From an uncultured Gilliamella sp. (GTDB lineage Bacteria > Pseudomonadota > Gammaproteobacteria > Enterobacterales > Orbaceae), in contig CALYPG010000016.1 in the NCBI GenBank assembly GCA_945271295.1, forward strand, positions 1 to 58,480: DNA of 58,480 nucleotides, given 5' to 3'. This document shows positions 12,790 to 21,643 of this stretch, piece after piece. Position 1 is the stretch's first letter; each line of letters opens with the position of its first letter. The notes beneath the pieces are model-generated. The model did no database searches and had not been told where the DNA came from. It saw only the letters and a program-made list of their open reading frames with translations. The translations under genes were made by a program, and so were the position numbers.

Positions 12790-12924
12790 AAAATGTTTAA
12801 TTTACCATCTTTTAACAAAAAATAGTAATAAAATGGTTGCGTAGCCAGATAATTATAAGTATTATAGCAACCCGAAATTGCTTGTAACCTTAATAATTAA
12901 GGTGATAGTAAATCAAATCAAAAT

Positions 12925-13000
12925 GGGTTGTTAGCTCAGTCGGTAGAGCAGCGGACTTTTAATCCGTTTGTCGAGCGTTCGAATCGCTCACGACCCACCA
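12925..13000 (+). tRNA. tRNA-Lys (anticodon TTT)
   Basis: A 76-base cloverleaf with acceptor GGGTTGT/ACGACCC (one G-T pair), anticodon TTT in CTTTTAA, T-loop GTTCGAA and encoded CCA. The tRNA-like start and end fit E. coli tRNA-Lys. Its 3' end borders an accessory island with a decayed integrase, so it probably served as an integration site. Confidence 0.97.
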
Positions 13001-13067
13001 TTTATCTTATTAAATTATTATAACTTACTGCTAAATTCTCTTTCCCAATTTCATTATGACACATTGA

Positions 13068-13545
13068 CTATAACGTAAATGTGATATTATAAGTAAAATC
13101 AAGCATGTGACTAGCATTTAAATTAGCGTACTTTCTGCCCATTACTAATGGCTCCCAGTCATATGTCTCTTTCAAAATAAAAAGAGGCGTTCCAGCTTGT
13201 ACATGCTAACTTATCCCACGTATGACACTAATCGTGAAAATGAAAATTATCAATTCGGATTAATTGCAATGCTCTTTTAAAATCACGTCCATCAATATCG
13301 TATATCCGTTTATGTGTTTCATGTATATACATAGTCGCTATCACGTGATAAAGAAGCAATTAACTGCATCGCTTACTCATTCAAAACAAGTGATCTTGCT
13401 TTACCTGTTAGCATTTGTATGGGTTATTACAGCAAGCCGATTTGATAAATTAAAATTTGTCCACGTTAATGTGAAAATTTCACTGATCTTAATCCCAGTT
13501 AACCGAGCAAAAGAGCAAATTTGTTTCATCCAGGGGAGCTATAAA
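13068..13545 (-). pseudogene. Decayed phage-type tyrosine integrase beside tRNA-Lys
   Basis: Reading the minus strand across several frames recovers pieces of a tyrosine recombinase in order: TGIKISEIFTLTW (about 13450-13510; homologues have TGLRISE), GKARSLVLNE, RDFKRALQLIRIDNFHFHD, a stop and Cys where the family has Leu-Arg of HDLRH, then HTW, and finally VQAGTPLFILKETYDWE...GRKYANLNASH (13071-13202). At least three frameshifts and stops, plus loss of catalytic arginines, make it non-functional. It lies head-on next to tRNA-Lys, the normal place for an integrase. A plus-strand reading frame over the same bases is a shadow. Confidence 0.75.
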
Positions 13546-13685
13546 TTATCAATTAAATAATTAGCCTGTTCTTTAGGCAGCCAGCGAAAGCTTATTTTTG
13601 GGCTCTTGGCTACGTGTAACATAAGGAATAGAGTTAACTCTCTCTATCTTATGAGCTAAAGAGAATATCCTCATTTATTTTATTG

Positions 13686-13877
13686 CTATATTTGGTCAAA
13701 AATAAATTTGATGAAGTCTTCTTGTAAAATTTCGATTTGAAATAAATCTAAATATTCATGAGTATCTGATTTTGTACTTTCTAATTCGATATGTTTATCT
13801 GTTAATGAAACTCCAGATCTTTCTCGAGCTGGCATACTCTTATCATCAACAATATACAACCAATATCTTTTAGAGAA
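13686..13877 (-). pseudogene. Unidentified gene fragment, 5'-truncated
   Basis: An open 63-codon minus-strand stretch with natural-looking composition, starting FSKRYWLYIVDD and ending FIKFIFDQI before a TAG. No start codon is in frame, since a TAA lies just upstream. I read it as the 3' part of a broken gene in the tRNA-Lys island. I do not recognise the family. Confidence 0.4.
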
Positions 13878-14115
13878 AACTTAACATTTTTAATATCTAA
13901 GTATTAATTATTTTTGTTATTTTATATTCATATCCTTTCACAATGCAAAATCATAAGTTAGAACAATTTAATAATTTAGCTATACTTCTATTTGAAAAAG
14001 TCATAGTGTAATTACACACATCGCTATCGTTGACGTGAACTTGCATGGAAATTTACCTGACTCTTTTAAGGTGAAGATGAAAAGAAGTAAGCTGCTTATT
14101 TTTTGAATATTACTA

Positions 14116-14298
14116 GACGAATATCTCGCTTTACTCGCACGTAAAACAAGACCATGTTTAGCAATATGGATGCATGAAACGTGCTTAGGAGTTAAACGGT
14201 CTAAACCTTTACTAAAAGTAGCATCGGTATTACTACTTAGCTTAGCCAAAATTGGTGACAATCTTAATCAAATAGCGAAATATGTTCATCAAAGTTAA
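14116..14298 (+). pseudogene. Probable MobC-like mobilisation protein remnant
   Basis: The plus strand reads openly for 60 codons and ends SLAKIGDNLNQIAKYVHQS. The block resembles the LARIGNNLNQIAR motif of MobC-family relaxosome proteins. No start is in frame, and flanking sequence (13942-14110 and 14300-14440) gives only interrupted frames, some with Gln/Ile-rich coiled-coil-like sequence. Likely a decayed mobilisation module of the tRNA-Lys island. The assignment rests on one motif. Confidence 0.4.
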
Positions 14299-14546
14299 AA
14301 GCATCAATAATGTGAGCAACGTATTCAACTTGATTGAACAGATTAAAATCATTCAGATGTTACAAATACAAAAAAAATCAATTAACCAAGCTGATATCAA
14401 TATTGAGCAAACAAAACAACGAATTGAGTCAACTAAATGACCAATTGAACAATCAAAATCAATCTTTTCGTTTGCAAATAAACAAATTACTTTAATTAAA
14501 CGAAAAAATAGAAATGATATTAATTATTAAAAATAATCTTTATTTA

Positions 14547-15761
14547 TTATGTTGTTTTCCCCTGTGTGTAAGTTTCTACTTCCTCTTGAGTTGGAGTCAT
14601 TGAGTAAAATAAGTTCTCATAATCAGTTGCTTTTTCTTTATATTCTAATTTAAAACAAATGTTTGCCATTGTCGCATAAATCCATTTTTTATCATGTCTA
14701 TCATCAAAATCGGAAGAATTTATTAATTTCGAAAGTAGATCATATAAAGTTGTTCTGGTTTTTAAAGCTGCTATTGTGTAAAAAGTTTTTTGTTCTGAGT
14801 TAGATTCGACTCCACATTTTAAATCAAAACAAGCGGCTAAATTCTCACCATTATAGTAGTCTTTTTTGATAATAAATCCGCGAAAGTAATATTCAATAGC
14901 TTTATCTAATTGGACTGGATCTTTTGTTAATAACCATAATCGTTTCTGTATCGCACCAGCCAACCCTGTTGTTTCTGGGTCATTTGAAATTTCTGGAGAG
15001 AGTTTGGACAGAAGAGTTCTTGCAGTAAGTAGAGACTCAAGTTCGGATGGTTCTTTTGATTTGTATGTGGCTAATACTAATTTTTGTAATATATAGCTTT
15101 CGTTTGGTCGTAATTCATGTGCTGATTTGAAGTTATCTACAGCTTTGGTAAATTCCGACAATTTGAAGTAATGCTCACCTTGCTTTATGTACGTAAGTAA
15201 ATTGTTTTCAATATCGTTTGCATCTTCAATAATTTCTTCAATTTCTTCTTCAGTTAAAATTGGCATTTTTAAGTTTGGCAAAAAACTATATAAAGGGCTA
15301 TCTACTTCATCAACATTGAAAATATTCGTAATAAGTTCTGATAGTTCTGTTTTAGCTCGTCTAGCTTCTTTTGCTCCAATTTCTTCACCTAAATGTCTAT
15401 AGTTAAATGTTGAGATATGATTTAAATCGAAAGAGAGTTTACAATCTGATTCTTTCATGATGATTGTTCGGTTTCTTTTCAAAGCGTGTCGAACACCAAG
15501 CTCATAAACAGCATTTACATTACCAGTTGATATATCAGCAATAACTAAATCAGCATTTAATAACATGTTGTACATTGGAATATCTATTTTACCACAACCT
15601 GAAATTTCATCTGCTCTAAAACAATTAAAACCAGCTGCCTCTACAGCTGGTTTTATAATTTCTGAGTATGTTTCATTTAAATCTACAACTTTACCTGTTT
15701 CATAATCGGTTTTTTTACCAAAACCCATCACAACAAAACATTTTTTTTTAGTATCTGTCAT
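14547..15761 (-). CDS. Deoxyribosyltransferase-like plus TPR protein, partner of TIR-like gene
   Basis: A 404-residue two-part protein. Residues 5-115 resemble nucleoside 2-deoxyribosyltransferase-like domains: CFVVMGFG at the start, a DLNETYSEIIKPA helix, RADE (D51, E52), and ADLVIADIST...NAVYELGVRHAL with Glu87 at the position of the family's catalytic glutamate. Residues ~185-400 are helical TPR-like repeats of the type annotated 'TRAFs-binding' or TPR-S. From memory, such domain pairs occur in predicted bacterial immune and conflict systems. The gene starts within the stop of the TIR-like gene (TAATG), so the two are coupled. It is intact in a decaying island. Biochemical function is unknown; nucleotide or NAD-derivative sensing or cleavage is inference. 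Confidence 0.75.
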   Translation of the reverse strand: MTDTKKKCFVVMGFGKKTDYETGKVVDLNETYSEIIKPAVEAAGFNCFRADEISGCGKIDIPMYNMLLNADLVIADISTGNVNAVYELGVRHALKRNRTIIMKESDCKLSFDLNHISTFNYRHLGEEIGAKEARRAKTELSELITNIFNVDEVDSPLYSFLPNLKMPILTEEEIEEIIEDANDIENNLLTYIKQGEHYFKLSEFTKAVDNFKSAHELRPNESYILQKLVLATYKSKEPSELESLLTARTLLSKLSPEISNDPETTGLAGAIQKRLWLLTKDPVQLDKAIEYYFRGFIIKKDYYNGENLAACFDLKCGVESNSEQKTFYTIAALKTRTTLYDLLSKLINSSDFDDRHDKKWIYATMANICFKLEYKEKATDYENLFYSMTPTQEEVETYTQGKTT

Positions 15762-16168
15762 TATACATAAGCTCTAATAGTATCGATAATACTTAAACTA
15801 TTCCAATTAACCATAACTGTTGCATTATCTGATACAACCGCTGGCACTCTTTTCTGCCCCCATGGTTTAACACCTATAATTACTTTTTTTAAATGTACAG
15901 CCTCATCTATTTCATATTTAATCCATTCACTATGAGCTGCATACATTCCTGCAAGAATAATTACTCCTTGAGCAGGGTTAATTTGATTTGTAATTCCTGT
16001 TTTCAGACCTTTTCTTGTTTTATCTGACAATGGGTCTGTACTTGGCACGCTATAGTTAGCCCAGTCAAAGTTTGATGTGAGATTAAGCCATGAGACCAAT
16101 TGATTGTAATGATAATCATAAGACCACGCATGGCTTATAAAGAGTTTTCTTTTTTTAAGCTTAGGCAT
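15761..16168 (-). CDS. TIR-like domain protein (ThsB/DUF1863-type)
   Basis: A 135-residue single-domain protein of the TIR-like MTH538/ThsB type: KRKLFISHAW at strand A (residues 7-15), a middle region with NQINPAQGVIILAG, and S80-x-W82-x-x-x-E86 (SEWIKYEIDEA), where Glu86 fits the catalytic glutamate of NADase TIRs, then GVKPWGQKRVP. In Thoeris systems ThsB makes a cyclic ADP-ribose-type signal after phage infection, but no ThsA (SIR2-SLOG) gene is nearby. The partner is the overlapping deoxyribosyltransferase-like/TPR gene. Signal synthesis or NAD cleavage is inferred. Confidence 0.75.
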   Translation of the reverse strand: MPKLKKRKLFISHAWSYDYHYNQLVSWLNLTSNFDWANYSVPSTDPLSDKTRKGLKTGITNQINPAQGVIILAGMYAAHSEWIKYEIDEAVHLKKVIIGVKPWGQKRVPAVVSDNATVMVNWNSLSIIDTIRAYV

Positions 16169-16671
16169 ATTTGATTTTACTCTATAATAATCTGTTAAGT
16201 TCTACTGTATTTATTAATTTTTTATTATTCACTAATCGTATTATTTAATCTATTTTCTGATATTATACCATGTAAAGTTACTATCAAGTTAACTCTTTTT
16301 ATTTAATCTCATAGTTGTATGTAACGGTATTCTTTGCAGTGTGATAAACCATAAATTAGGGACATTTTCCAAGAACAAAACATTTATGTAGTGAAGTTAA
16401 ATTTTATGCTTAAAGCTAAGTGTTGCCGATAAATTGAATTAACTATACACTAAGTTTTATGCTAATCTATAATTTAACCTTTCAGATAAGCGATAATATA
16501 CTCAATAATCAGATTCACAAGCCAATATTTCCTCTTTATTAATATATAGTAAAAATAATAACTATTTAATTTTATATCATTATTAATAATATCTAAAAAT
16601 ATTAGCGTATAAACTATTAACTTACCCGTGAGTTCATCTACAAGATTAAGATTATGAGTTTGTATGTTAGG
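16169..16671. other. AT-rich spacer upstream of the TIR-like operon
   Basis: About 500 bases with no supported gene on either strand. It contains the promoter region for the TIR-like operon (minus strand), though no strong -10/-35 pair stands out, and it forms the right edge of the tRNA-Lys island before pepT. Confidence 0.5.
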
Positions 16672-16697
16672 AAAAAAGGGAATGGAATCCCTTTTTT
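16672..16697 (-). terminator. Rho-independent terminator of abgT-pepT
   Basis: AAAAAAGGGA and TCCCTTTTTT form a 10-base-pair stem around a 6-base loop just after the pepT stop. On the minus strand the stem ends in a T run, as a classical terminator does; being symmetrical, it could work both ways. Confidence 0.8.
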
Positions 16698-16704
16698 ATA
16701 AGAA

Positions 16705-21403: not shown

Positions 21404-21643
21404 CTAAGTGCGAATCCAGTCAGTAAAAGGCTTCATAAGGTGTTTTAAATCCAAGTAGTTTCGTGAGCGATGATTTAATCGAGCCATAACCATTAAAACC
21501 TCTTTATGACTAATCATAGTAAATAGCATTTTCTTAGGGAAATATTGTCTGATTAATCCATTAGTATTTTCATTTTTCCCTTGCTCCAAAGGCAGATATG
21601 GATGAGCAAAATAAAATTTACACTTAGAGTTGCTTTGCAACAT
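21404..21643 (-). pseudogene. IS30-family transposase, C-terminal fragment
   Basis: 79 residues of an IS30-type DDE transposase C-terminus: KCKFYFAHPYLPLEQGKNENTNG holds the catalytic-glutamate region (NENTNGLIRQYFPK), then a degraded tail RLNHRSRNYLDLK. The normal protein is over 300 residues, so the N-terminus and first catalytic Asp are missing; dusC lies directly upstream. It is flanked downstream by the IS terminus copy C. A dead remnant. Confidence 0.88.

Follow-up and report, generated by a model that had tools for sequence, protein, structure and literature searches.

Introduction

Bacterial systems built around the TPR-S domain were reportedly predicted in silico by Burroughs and Aravind in 2020 (J Bacteriol), who are said to have proposed that TPR-S senses signals derived from nicotinamide adenine dinucleotide (NAD) and that the ASK signalosome derives in part from it. 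PMC8195603 cites that study, among others, for a bacterial origin of ASK signalosome parts. TIR-1/SARM1 of C. elegans, once active, recruits NSY-1/ASK1 and switches it on (PMC8920508, excerpts). Thoeris systems of types I, II and IV have been described with SIR2, TM-macro and caspase-like effectors, respectively (available passages of PMC12847820 and PMC11204291). Here we describe a two-gene operon in a 58,480-nucleotide stretch of DNA from an uncultured Gilliamella sp. (contig CALYPG010000016.1; the whole stretch is referred to below as the window). The operon pairs a ThsB-type TIR protein with a partner in which a predicted TPR-S sensor domain follows a DRHyd-like domain (the DRHyd-TPR-S protein) and, as judged from its sequence, is probably a virus-defence system.

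The locus has features in common with each of these systems. With Thoeris it shares a two-gene operon and a ThsB-type TIR with the catalytic-type glutamate of ThsB, and two relatives of the window TIR have caspase proteins nearby, a class of effector that PMC12847820 describes for type IV. It differs from Thoeris in that the partner is a DRHyd-TPR-S protein, with no ThsA-type effector in the operon. As the ThsB feature is present and the effector is not, we did not file the operon as Thoeris. The absence of ThsA asserted in a preliminary description of this DNA was upheld: no ThsA-like SIR2-SLOG protein was found beside the operon, and the sole SIR2_2 match in the genome falls on another contig, in a Sir2/short-Argonaute-like pair. 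The caspase family had no match in the genome at E≤0.001. Thoeris proper was accordingly rejected as an identification, there being no ThsA-type partner. The likeness to the predicted TPR-S systems lies in a TPR-S domain (PF20308, above its curated cut-off) with an NAD-signal type of enzyme co-located at this locus.

The preliminary description had called the system a candidate for an undescribed one. In a search of the open-access literature, which leaves most subscription papers outside, the matches listed included no experiments on a system of TIR plus DRHyd-TPR-S; the type itself had reportedly been predicted in silico, and to that extent the claim does not stand. Swarozyc systems (DUF4062 TIR-like NADases) resemble the present one in using a TIR/NDT-related NADase with a conserved Glu against phage (NDT, nucleoside deoxyribosyltransferase), but they belong to another family and are portal-activated, and TPR is not mentioned in the portion of PMC13174449 available.

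Domain composition of the two proteins

Both open reading frames (ORFs) of the operon (14547-16168, minus strand) are intact and have 1 nt in common, in the sequence TAATG; the coordinates of the two, their overlap and the 404-residue length of the partner were as first described. The TIR protein is matched by ThsB_TIR (PF08937) at 68.6 bits against a Pfam cut-off of 21.2 (E=6e-19) and by the PADLOC ThsB model PDLC00418 at 4e-15, which bears out its earlier assignment to the ThsB type. S80, W82 and the putative catalytic E86 likewise occupy the positions that had been given for them, and a catalytic-type Glu is kept at E86 in 51 of 52 aligned TIRs. The structural model, with a predicted local distance difference test score (pLDDT) of 84.5, has EcThsB (8wcf) as its best PDB fold. 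When viral contigs were searched with the TIR as query, the pattern was matched in 2 stretches, neither of which was confirmed.

The C-terminal part of the partner, previously described as TPR-like, could be identified as TPR-S (PF20308, 75.8 bits against a cut-off of 27.6, E=5e-21), a family matched in all 62 relatives. The MAP3K TRAFs-binding family PF13281 (MAP3K_TRAF_bd) also matches the partner (26.5 bits, cut-off 24.1), as it does 62 of 62 full-length relatives at E≤0.01. No SIR2, SLOG, macro or caspase domain was detected in the partner at E≤0.5 (Pfam). PADLOC 2023 offers no strong model for the DRHyd-TPR-S protein: among 25 members at E≤0.01 only three TIR effector models appeared, the best at 4e-9, and ThsA models are absent from the partner's matches. 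Across 62 sequences, 25 of 90 TPR-S positions are conserved at ≥90%, compared with 5 of 94 in the helical tail that follows. Conserved residues of TPR-S include Q226, D261, T264, K273, Y302, Y303 and N307. Conservation of this degree would be expected of a domain that binds an unvarying small molecule, and less so of one that has to follow phage proteins as they change.

For the N-terminal domain we use the name DRHyd from papers of the Aravind group. The first 150 residues of the window partner gave no significant Pfam match, and the nucleoside deoxyribosyltransferase family PF05014 matched only one of 62 full-length relatives at E≤0.01 and four of 43 N-terminal pieces at E≤1. A profile built from these 43 N-termini and compared with the PDB returned Rcl/DNPH1 in all 11 matches at E≤10, the best reaching only 0.08; the glutamate of YELG is aligned with Rcl/DNPH1 in the five alignments shown, and the alignment to DNPH1 begins downstream of the NDT active-site tyrosine. 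We call the domain DRHyd-like because PF05014 is rare among the relatives and Rcl/DNPH1 is the sole PDB profile family. Residues R49, D60, D76, N81, N83, Y86 and E87 of this domain are invariant in 62 sequences. As to the NDT-like N-terminus of the preliminary description, E87 does lie within NAVYELG and the profile does lead to Rcl/DNPH1 alone, but the resemblance in sequence is weak. The profile search of both proteins that had been recommended thus returned ThsB_TIR and TPR-S clearly and the deoxyribosyltransferase-like part weakly. The label DRHyd occurs in the accessible text of PMC9503650, PMC8195603 and PMC7159879.

One structural model (pLDDT 87.7) covers the 404-residue partner, and the TPR half dominates its list of structural matches. 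The best of these is human ASK1, a stress kinase whose regulatory half the partner resembles, the superposition over both domains being poor (root-mean-square deviation 18.7-19.3). This match, that to PF13281 and the presence of a TIR protein upstream of NSY-1 (PMC8920508, excerpts) are points of likeness to the animal pathway; unlike ASK1, the bacterial partner has no kinase domain, and animal TIR-1 acts by recruitment (same excerpts).

An artefact was considered and rejected, given that both genes are intact and the TIR and TPR-S profile scores are strong. A terminator-like hairpin at 15626-15655 lies within the coding region and the promoter count of 24 is close to the shuffled mean of 22.1, and we therefore make no regulatory claim for the operon.

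Pairing of the TIR and DRHyd-TPR-S genes

Relatives of the partner were sought with two peptide patterns, which yielded 534 of them across 552 stretches from GTDB species genomes; of these 534 the 80 best were kept, and TIR ORFs at their loci were marked by an iterated profile started from the window TIR (E≤0.01). In 58 of the 80 loci a TIR ORF lies on the same strand within 200 bp of the partner, in four on the opposite strand within 400 bp and in eight farther off, with none in the examined stretch of the remaining 10. As a control in the same loci, a TIR was found near 35 of 556 other genes (≥150 residues, recurrent module genes excluded) and near 109 of 636 when the module genes were counted. 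The co-occurrence survey proposed in the preliminary description thus points to a pairing that is conserved, not random, in close relatives. No more than 10 bp separates 32 of 72 adjacent TIR ORFs from the partner, with an overlap in 10 of the 32. An alignment was made of 52 of the 66 small adjacent TIRs (14 were left out), and PF08937 matches all 52. In 16 of the 80 loci one adjacent TIR occurs with no other recognised module or TIR, several of these being on contigs of only 3-7 kb.

A protein database provided an independent check: 13 exact contig sizes recurred when the top 120 clusters for the TIR were compared with the top 120 for the partner, whereas with one list shifted by 1-60 in either direction the shared sizes averaged 1.2 and never exceeded 4. 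Random pairing and absence of the domains had been set beforehand as refuting outcomes; neither was seen in the sequence tests, in which pairing was judged in close relatives.

Exchange of effectors around TIR and TPR-S

Both halves of the operon are found elsewhere with other companions. Ten TPR-S ORFs besides that of locus L008 were scanned for fused effectors, L124 falling outside the result. TPR-S is fused to a patatin in L116 (1770-4100) and L119 (6209-8920), to a trypsin-like protease in L121 (3881-5524) and L131 (4089-5777), and to an alpha/beta-hydrolase in L008 (6469-7884), L122 and, just below the cut-off, L113 (5534-6904). The N-terminus of the TPR-S proteins in L126, L128 and L130 matches no recognised domain.

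On the TIR side, eight matches were obtained among 369 genomes of the class, one of them the window's own. In a tree, the window TIR groups with three others (support 100/98), two TPR-S-paired TIRs and that of genome G580; the latter is 58% identical to the window TIR and is followed by a SLATT_1/DUF4231 protein with two transmembrane segments. The TIRs of G707, G796, G603 and G461 (23-31% identity) have neighbourhoods that look housekeeping by eye, and no partner was recognised for those of G741 and G486. Among eight plasmid TIR regions the nearby effector is a caspase in two and 8xMP in three, with none recognised in three. The caspase is directly downstream of the TIR in Thiolapillus; in Rhizobium it is divergent, and some 700 bp that include a small ORF separate the two. 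The TIRs beside caspase or 8xMP proteins are more distantly related to the window's than that of G580. The ThsB-type TIRs adjoining 8xMP (PF24838) membrane proteins (L137, L139 and L142) are from cyanobacterial and haloarchaeal plasmids (Synechococcus, Haladaptatus, Natronosalvus), and 8xMP is possibly a further class of TIR effector. That TIR occurs with variable effectors and TPR-S with variable effectors fits a TIR-made signal that is read by TPR-S.

Some loci are larger than that of the window. A membrane protein, SLATT_3+SLATT_1 in the representative, is added in 28 of the 80 loci, and a second module set comprises, in its representatives, QueC, Ogg-HhH, a TIR-TGT fusion and a PfkB-like protein. 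The QueC gene is present in 18 of the 80 (loci with this module include L006, L007, L012, L018, L022, L032 and L037). PADLOC models match the QueC and TGT of these larger loci; such models are associated with type IV of the cyclic oligonucleotide-based anti-phage signalling system (CBASS), and we take the larger loci to be its TIR counterpart. Both the SLATT and the QueC modules are absent from the window.

Proposed function and alternatives

We propose, with a confidence that falls just short of even, that the two genes form an anti-phage operon which works in a Thoeris-like manner with a different effector. Upon infection the small TIR would turn NAD+ into a signal of the ADP-ribose type. 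Binding of this signal to the TPR-S half of the partner would switch on the N-terminal DRHyd domain, which would in turn attack NAD+ or nucleotides at the N-glycosidic bond, the resulting depletion halting phage growth. In this scheme we infer the phage trigger, the chemistry of the signal, its binding by TPR-S, the substrate of DRHyd and the defensive role. The preliminary description had offered a similar model, in which the TIR makes a signal and the partner senses it or cleaves a nucleotide; of the readings considered it is the one that the swapping of effectors favours most, and this swapping suggests rather than demonstrates immunity, catalysis and signalling. Should the proposal be true, TIR immune signalling would gain an abundant branch in which TPR-S is a new sensor and DRHyd a new effector.

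Several observations weigh against this scheme. Firstly, the assignment of the N-terminus to a DRHyd-like domain is, by sequence, a weak one. Secondly, the catalytic Glu of the TIR is also compatible with a TIR that acts as an NAD-depleting effector. Thirdly, in a more distant sample of 20 stretches of 6-13 kb around PF20308 matches in the phylum, a TIR ORF was present in 10, and in four of the eight stretches with a DRHyd-TPR-S protein. The six effector-fused TPR-S proteins recognised among the ten ORFs scanned besides that of L008 divide in the same way, a TIR being in the stretch for three (L113, L116 and L131) and for none of L119, L121 and L122. The association with a TIR is thus strong near the window protein and loosens among remoter TPR-S proteins, whose signals may come from different enzymes; this slightly lowered our confidence in the scheme. 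Lastly, in L008, L113, L116 and L119 the DRHyd-TPR-S protein adjoins a second effector-TPR-S protein with a more obvious killing domain. This makes DRHyd less sure as the killer, and it may instead be a shared signalling part.

In a rival reading the roles are reversed: it is the TIR that depletes NAD as the effector, while the sensing of infection or the making of the signal falls to the DRHyd-TPR-S protein. Some TIR domains do act directly as NADase effectors (PMC12847820, available passages), the DRHyd-TPR-S protein is the constant element beside variable hydrolase- and patatin-TPR-S proteins in the four loci just named, and TIR is missing from half of the distant TPR-S stretches. Against this, a close TIR relative pairs with a stand-alone SLATT protein and distant ones with a caspase, companions for which a TIR that killed by itself would have no use, and TPR-S seems too conserved for a sensor of phage proteins. 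We consider such a reversal unlikely, if deserving of attention.

Less probable still is activation by contact, with the TIR docking on the TPR-S protein as TIR-1/SARM1 recruits NSY-1/ASK1 and no diffusible signal involved. Here the exchange of partners between TIR and TPR-S proteins is a difficulty. Among the aligned loci the TIR nearest to the window's is that of L029, which is 67% identical, while the TPR-S partner in L029 is only 45% identical to the window's; an interface of fitted surfaces accounts for this mismatch less well than a small molecule common to both. It is very improbable that the two genes serve nucleotide salvage or housekeeping, or that they are the inert debris of a decayed element: the island is decayed, the DRHyd-TPR-S gene is missing from all 34 congeners and the DRHyd fold is also found in salvage enzymes, but both genes are intact and both families recur with defence-type effectors and on conjugative plasmids.

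If our proposal of a TIR-made signal read by TPR-S is extended to animals, the operon would be a living bacterial form of the TIR-1/SARM1-ASK1 axis, and the TPR region of ASK1 may descend from a receptor for a nucleotide made by a TIR and may even now act as one. We regard this as a speculative extension that is doubtful at present. Common descent and coincidence are both compatible with these data as explanations of the bacterial and animal TIR/ASK1 pairings. If the operon works as we propose, the suggested bacterial origin of the ASK1 signalosome would become testable at the bench.

Distribution and genomic context

Of 7999 candidates scored for the partner family, 4998 are homologues at E≤0.001. 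Of 67 plasmid records that match the partner, 41 cover ≥80% of the query; 36 phage records match it and none covers 80%, with only the N-terminal domain involved among the 30 phage matches listed. The TIR and DRHyd-TPR-S pair recurs over many bacterial phyla in either gene order, including on conjugative plasmids such as pKMi029_2 of E. coli. Given the number of homologues and their occurrence on plasmids, the partner family is not the curiosity of one genome. Within the phylum, 37 of 398 genomes have a match to PF20308. Among the 34 congeners the DRHyd-TPR-S gene was found in none; in the wider set one genome, G042, is weakly matched in the N-terminal part. Among 34 genomes scanned PF08937 occurs only in the window's own.

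The features of the region are given in Table 1.

Table 1. Features of the operon and of the adjoining island in the window.
Feature	Coordinates	Strand	Remarks
TIR gene	15761-16168	-	135 residues; first gene of the operon; ThsB-type (PF08937)
DRHyd-TPR-S gene	14547-15761	-	404 residues; second gene; start codon overlaps the TIR stop
DRHyd-like N-terminal domain (nucleoside deoxyribosyltransferase/DNPH1-like)	15312-15761	-	about residues 1-150
TPR-S sensor domain (predicted)	14829-15152	-	about residues 204-311
tRNA-Lys (TTT)	12925-13000	+	edge of insertion hotspot
Broken tyrosine-integrase remnant	13404-13607	-	13404-13538 matches PF00589, E=0.0011, below cut-off; 13542-13607 without match
MobC-like mobilisation remnant	14107-14295	+	PF05713, E=0.00013, 22.8 bits (cut-off 23.2)

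The decaying island beside tRNA-Lys that had been noted in the preliminary description was recovered: the integrase-like and MobC-like pieces sit in stop-broken frames between the tRNA gene and the operon, both below their Pfam cut-offs. Given these remnants, a mobilisable element that has since decayed may have brought the pair in. The island (13001-14546) had no DNA match in plasmids.

Distances between cpoB and pepT, worked out by hand, are 329-443 bp in six, about 920 bp in two and 1.9-2.9 kb in 12 of the 20 congeners with both genes on one contig, and 3916 bp in the window (12790-16704). A tRNA-Lys is present in all eight sampled congener stretches (two short, six longer). The varying distance around a constant tRNA-Lys marks the site as an insertion hotspot, which in some relatives holds nothing except the tRNA gene. 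Two filled congener sites hold a single ORF of about 700 residues, named by eye as TonB-dependent receptor-like.

Two further observations concern mobile and defence-related genes. A short ORF at 21404-21643 (minus strand) of the window has a weak match to the rve_3 integrase core (E=0.039) and is probably an insertion-sequence remnant. Elsewhere in the same genome (G000, contig C6, 80518-83803; L221:4519-7804), a 616-residue Sir2 protein, which matches the Sir2 superfamily protein of PDB 8in8/8k87 at E=4e-66, overlaps a 493-residue ORF. By its position we take this ORF to be a short Argonaute, and the two presumably form a second NAD-linked defence pair.
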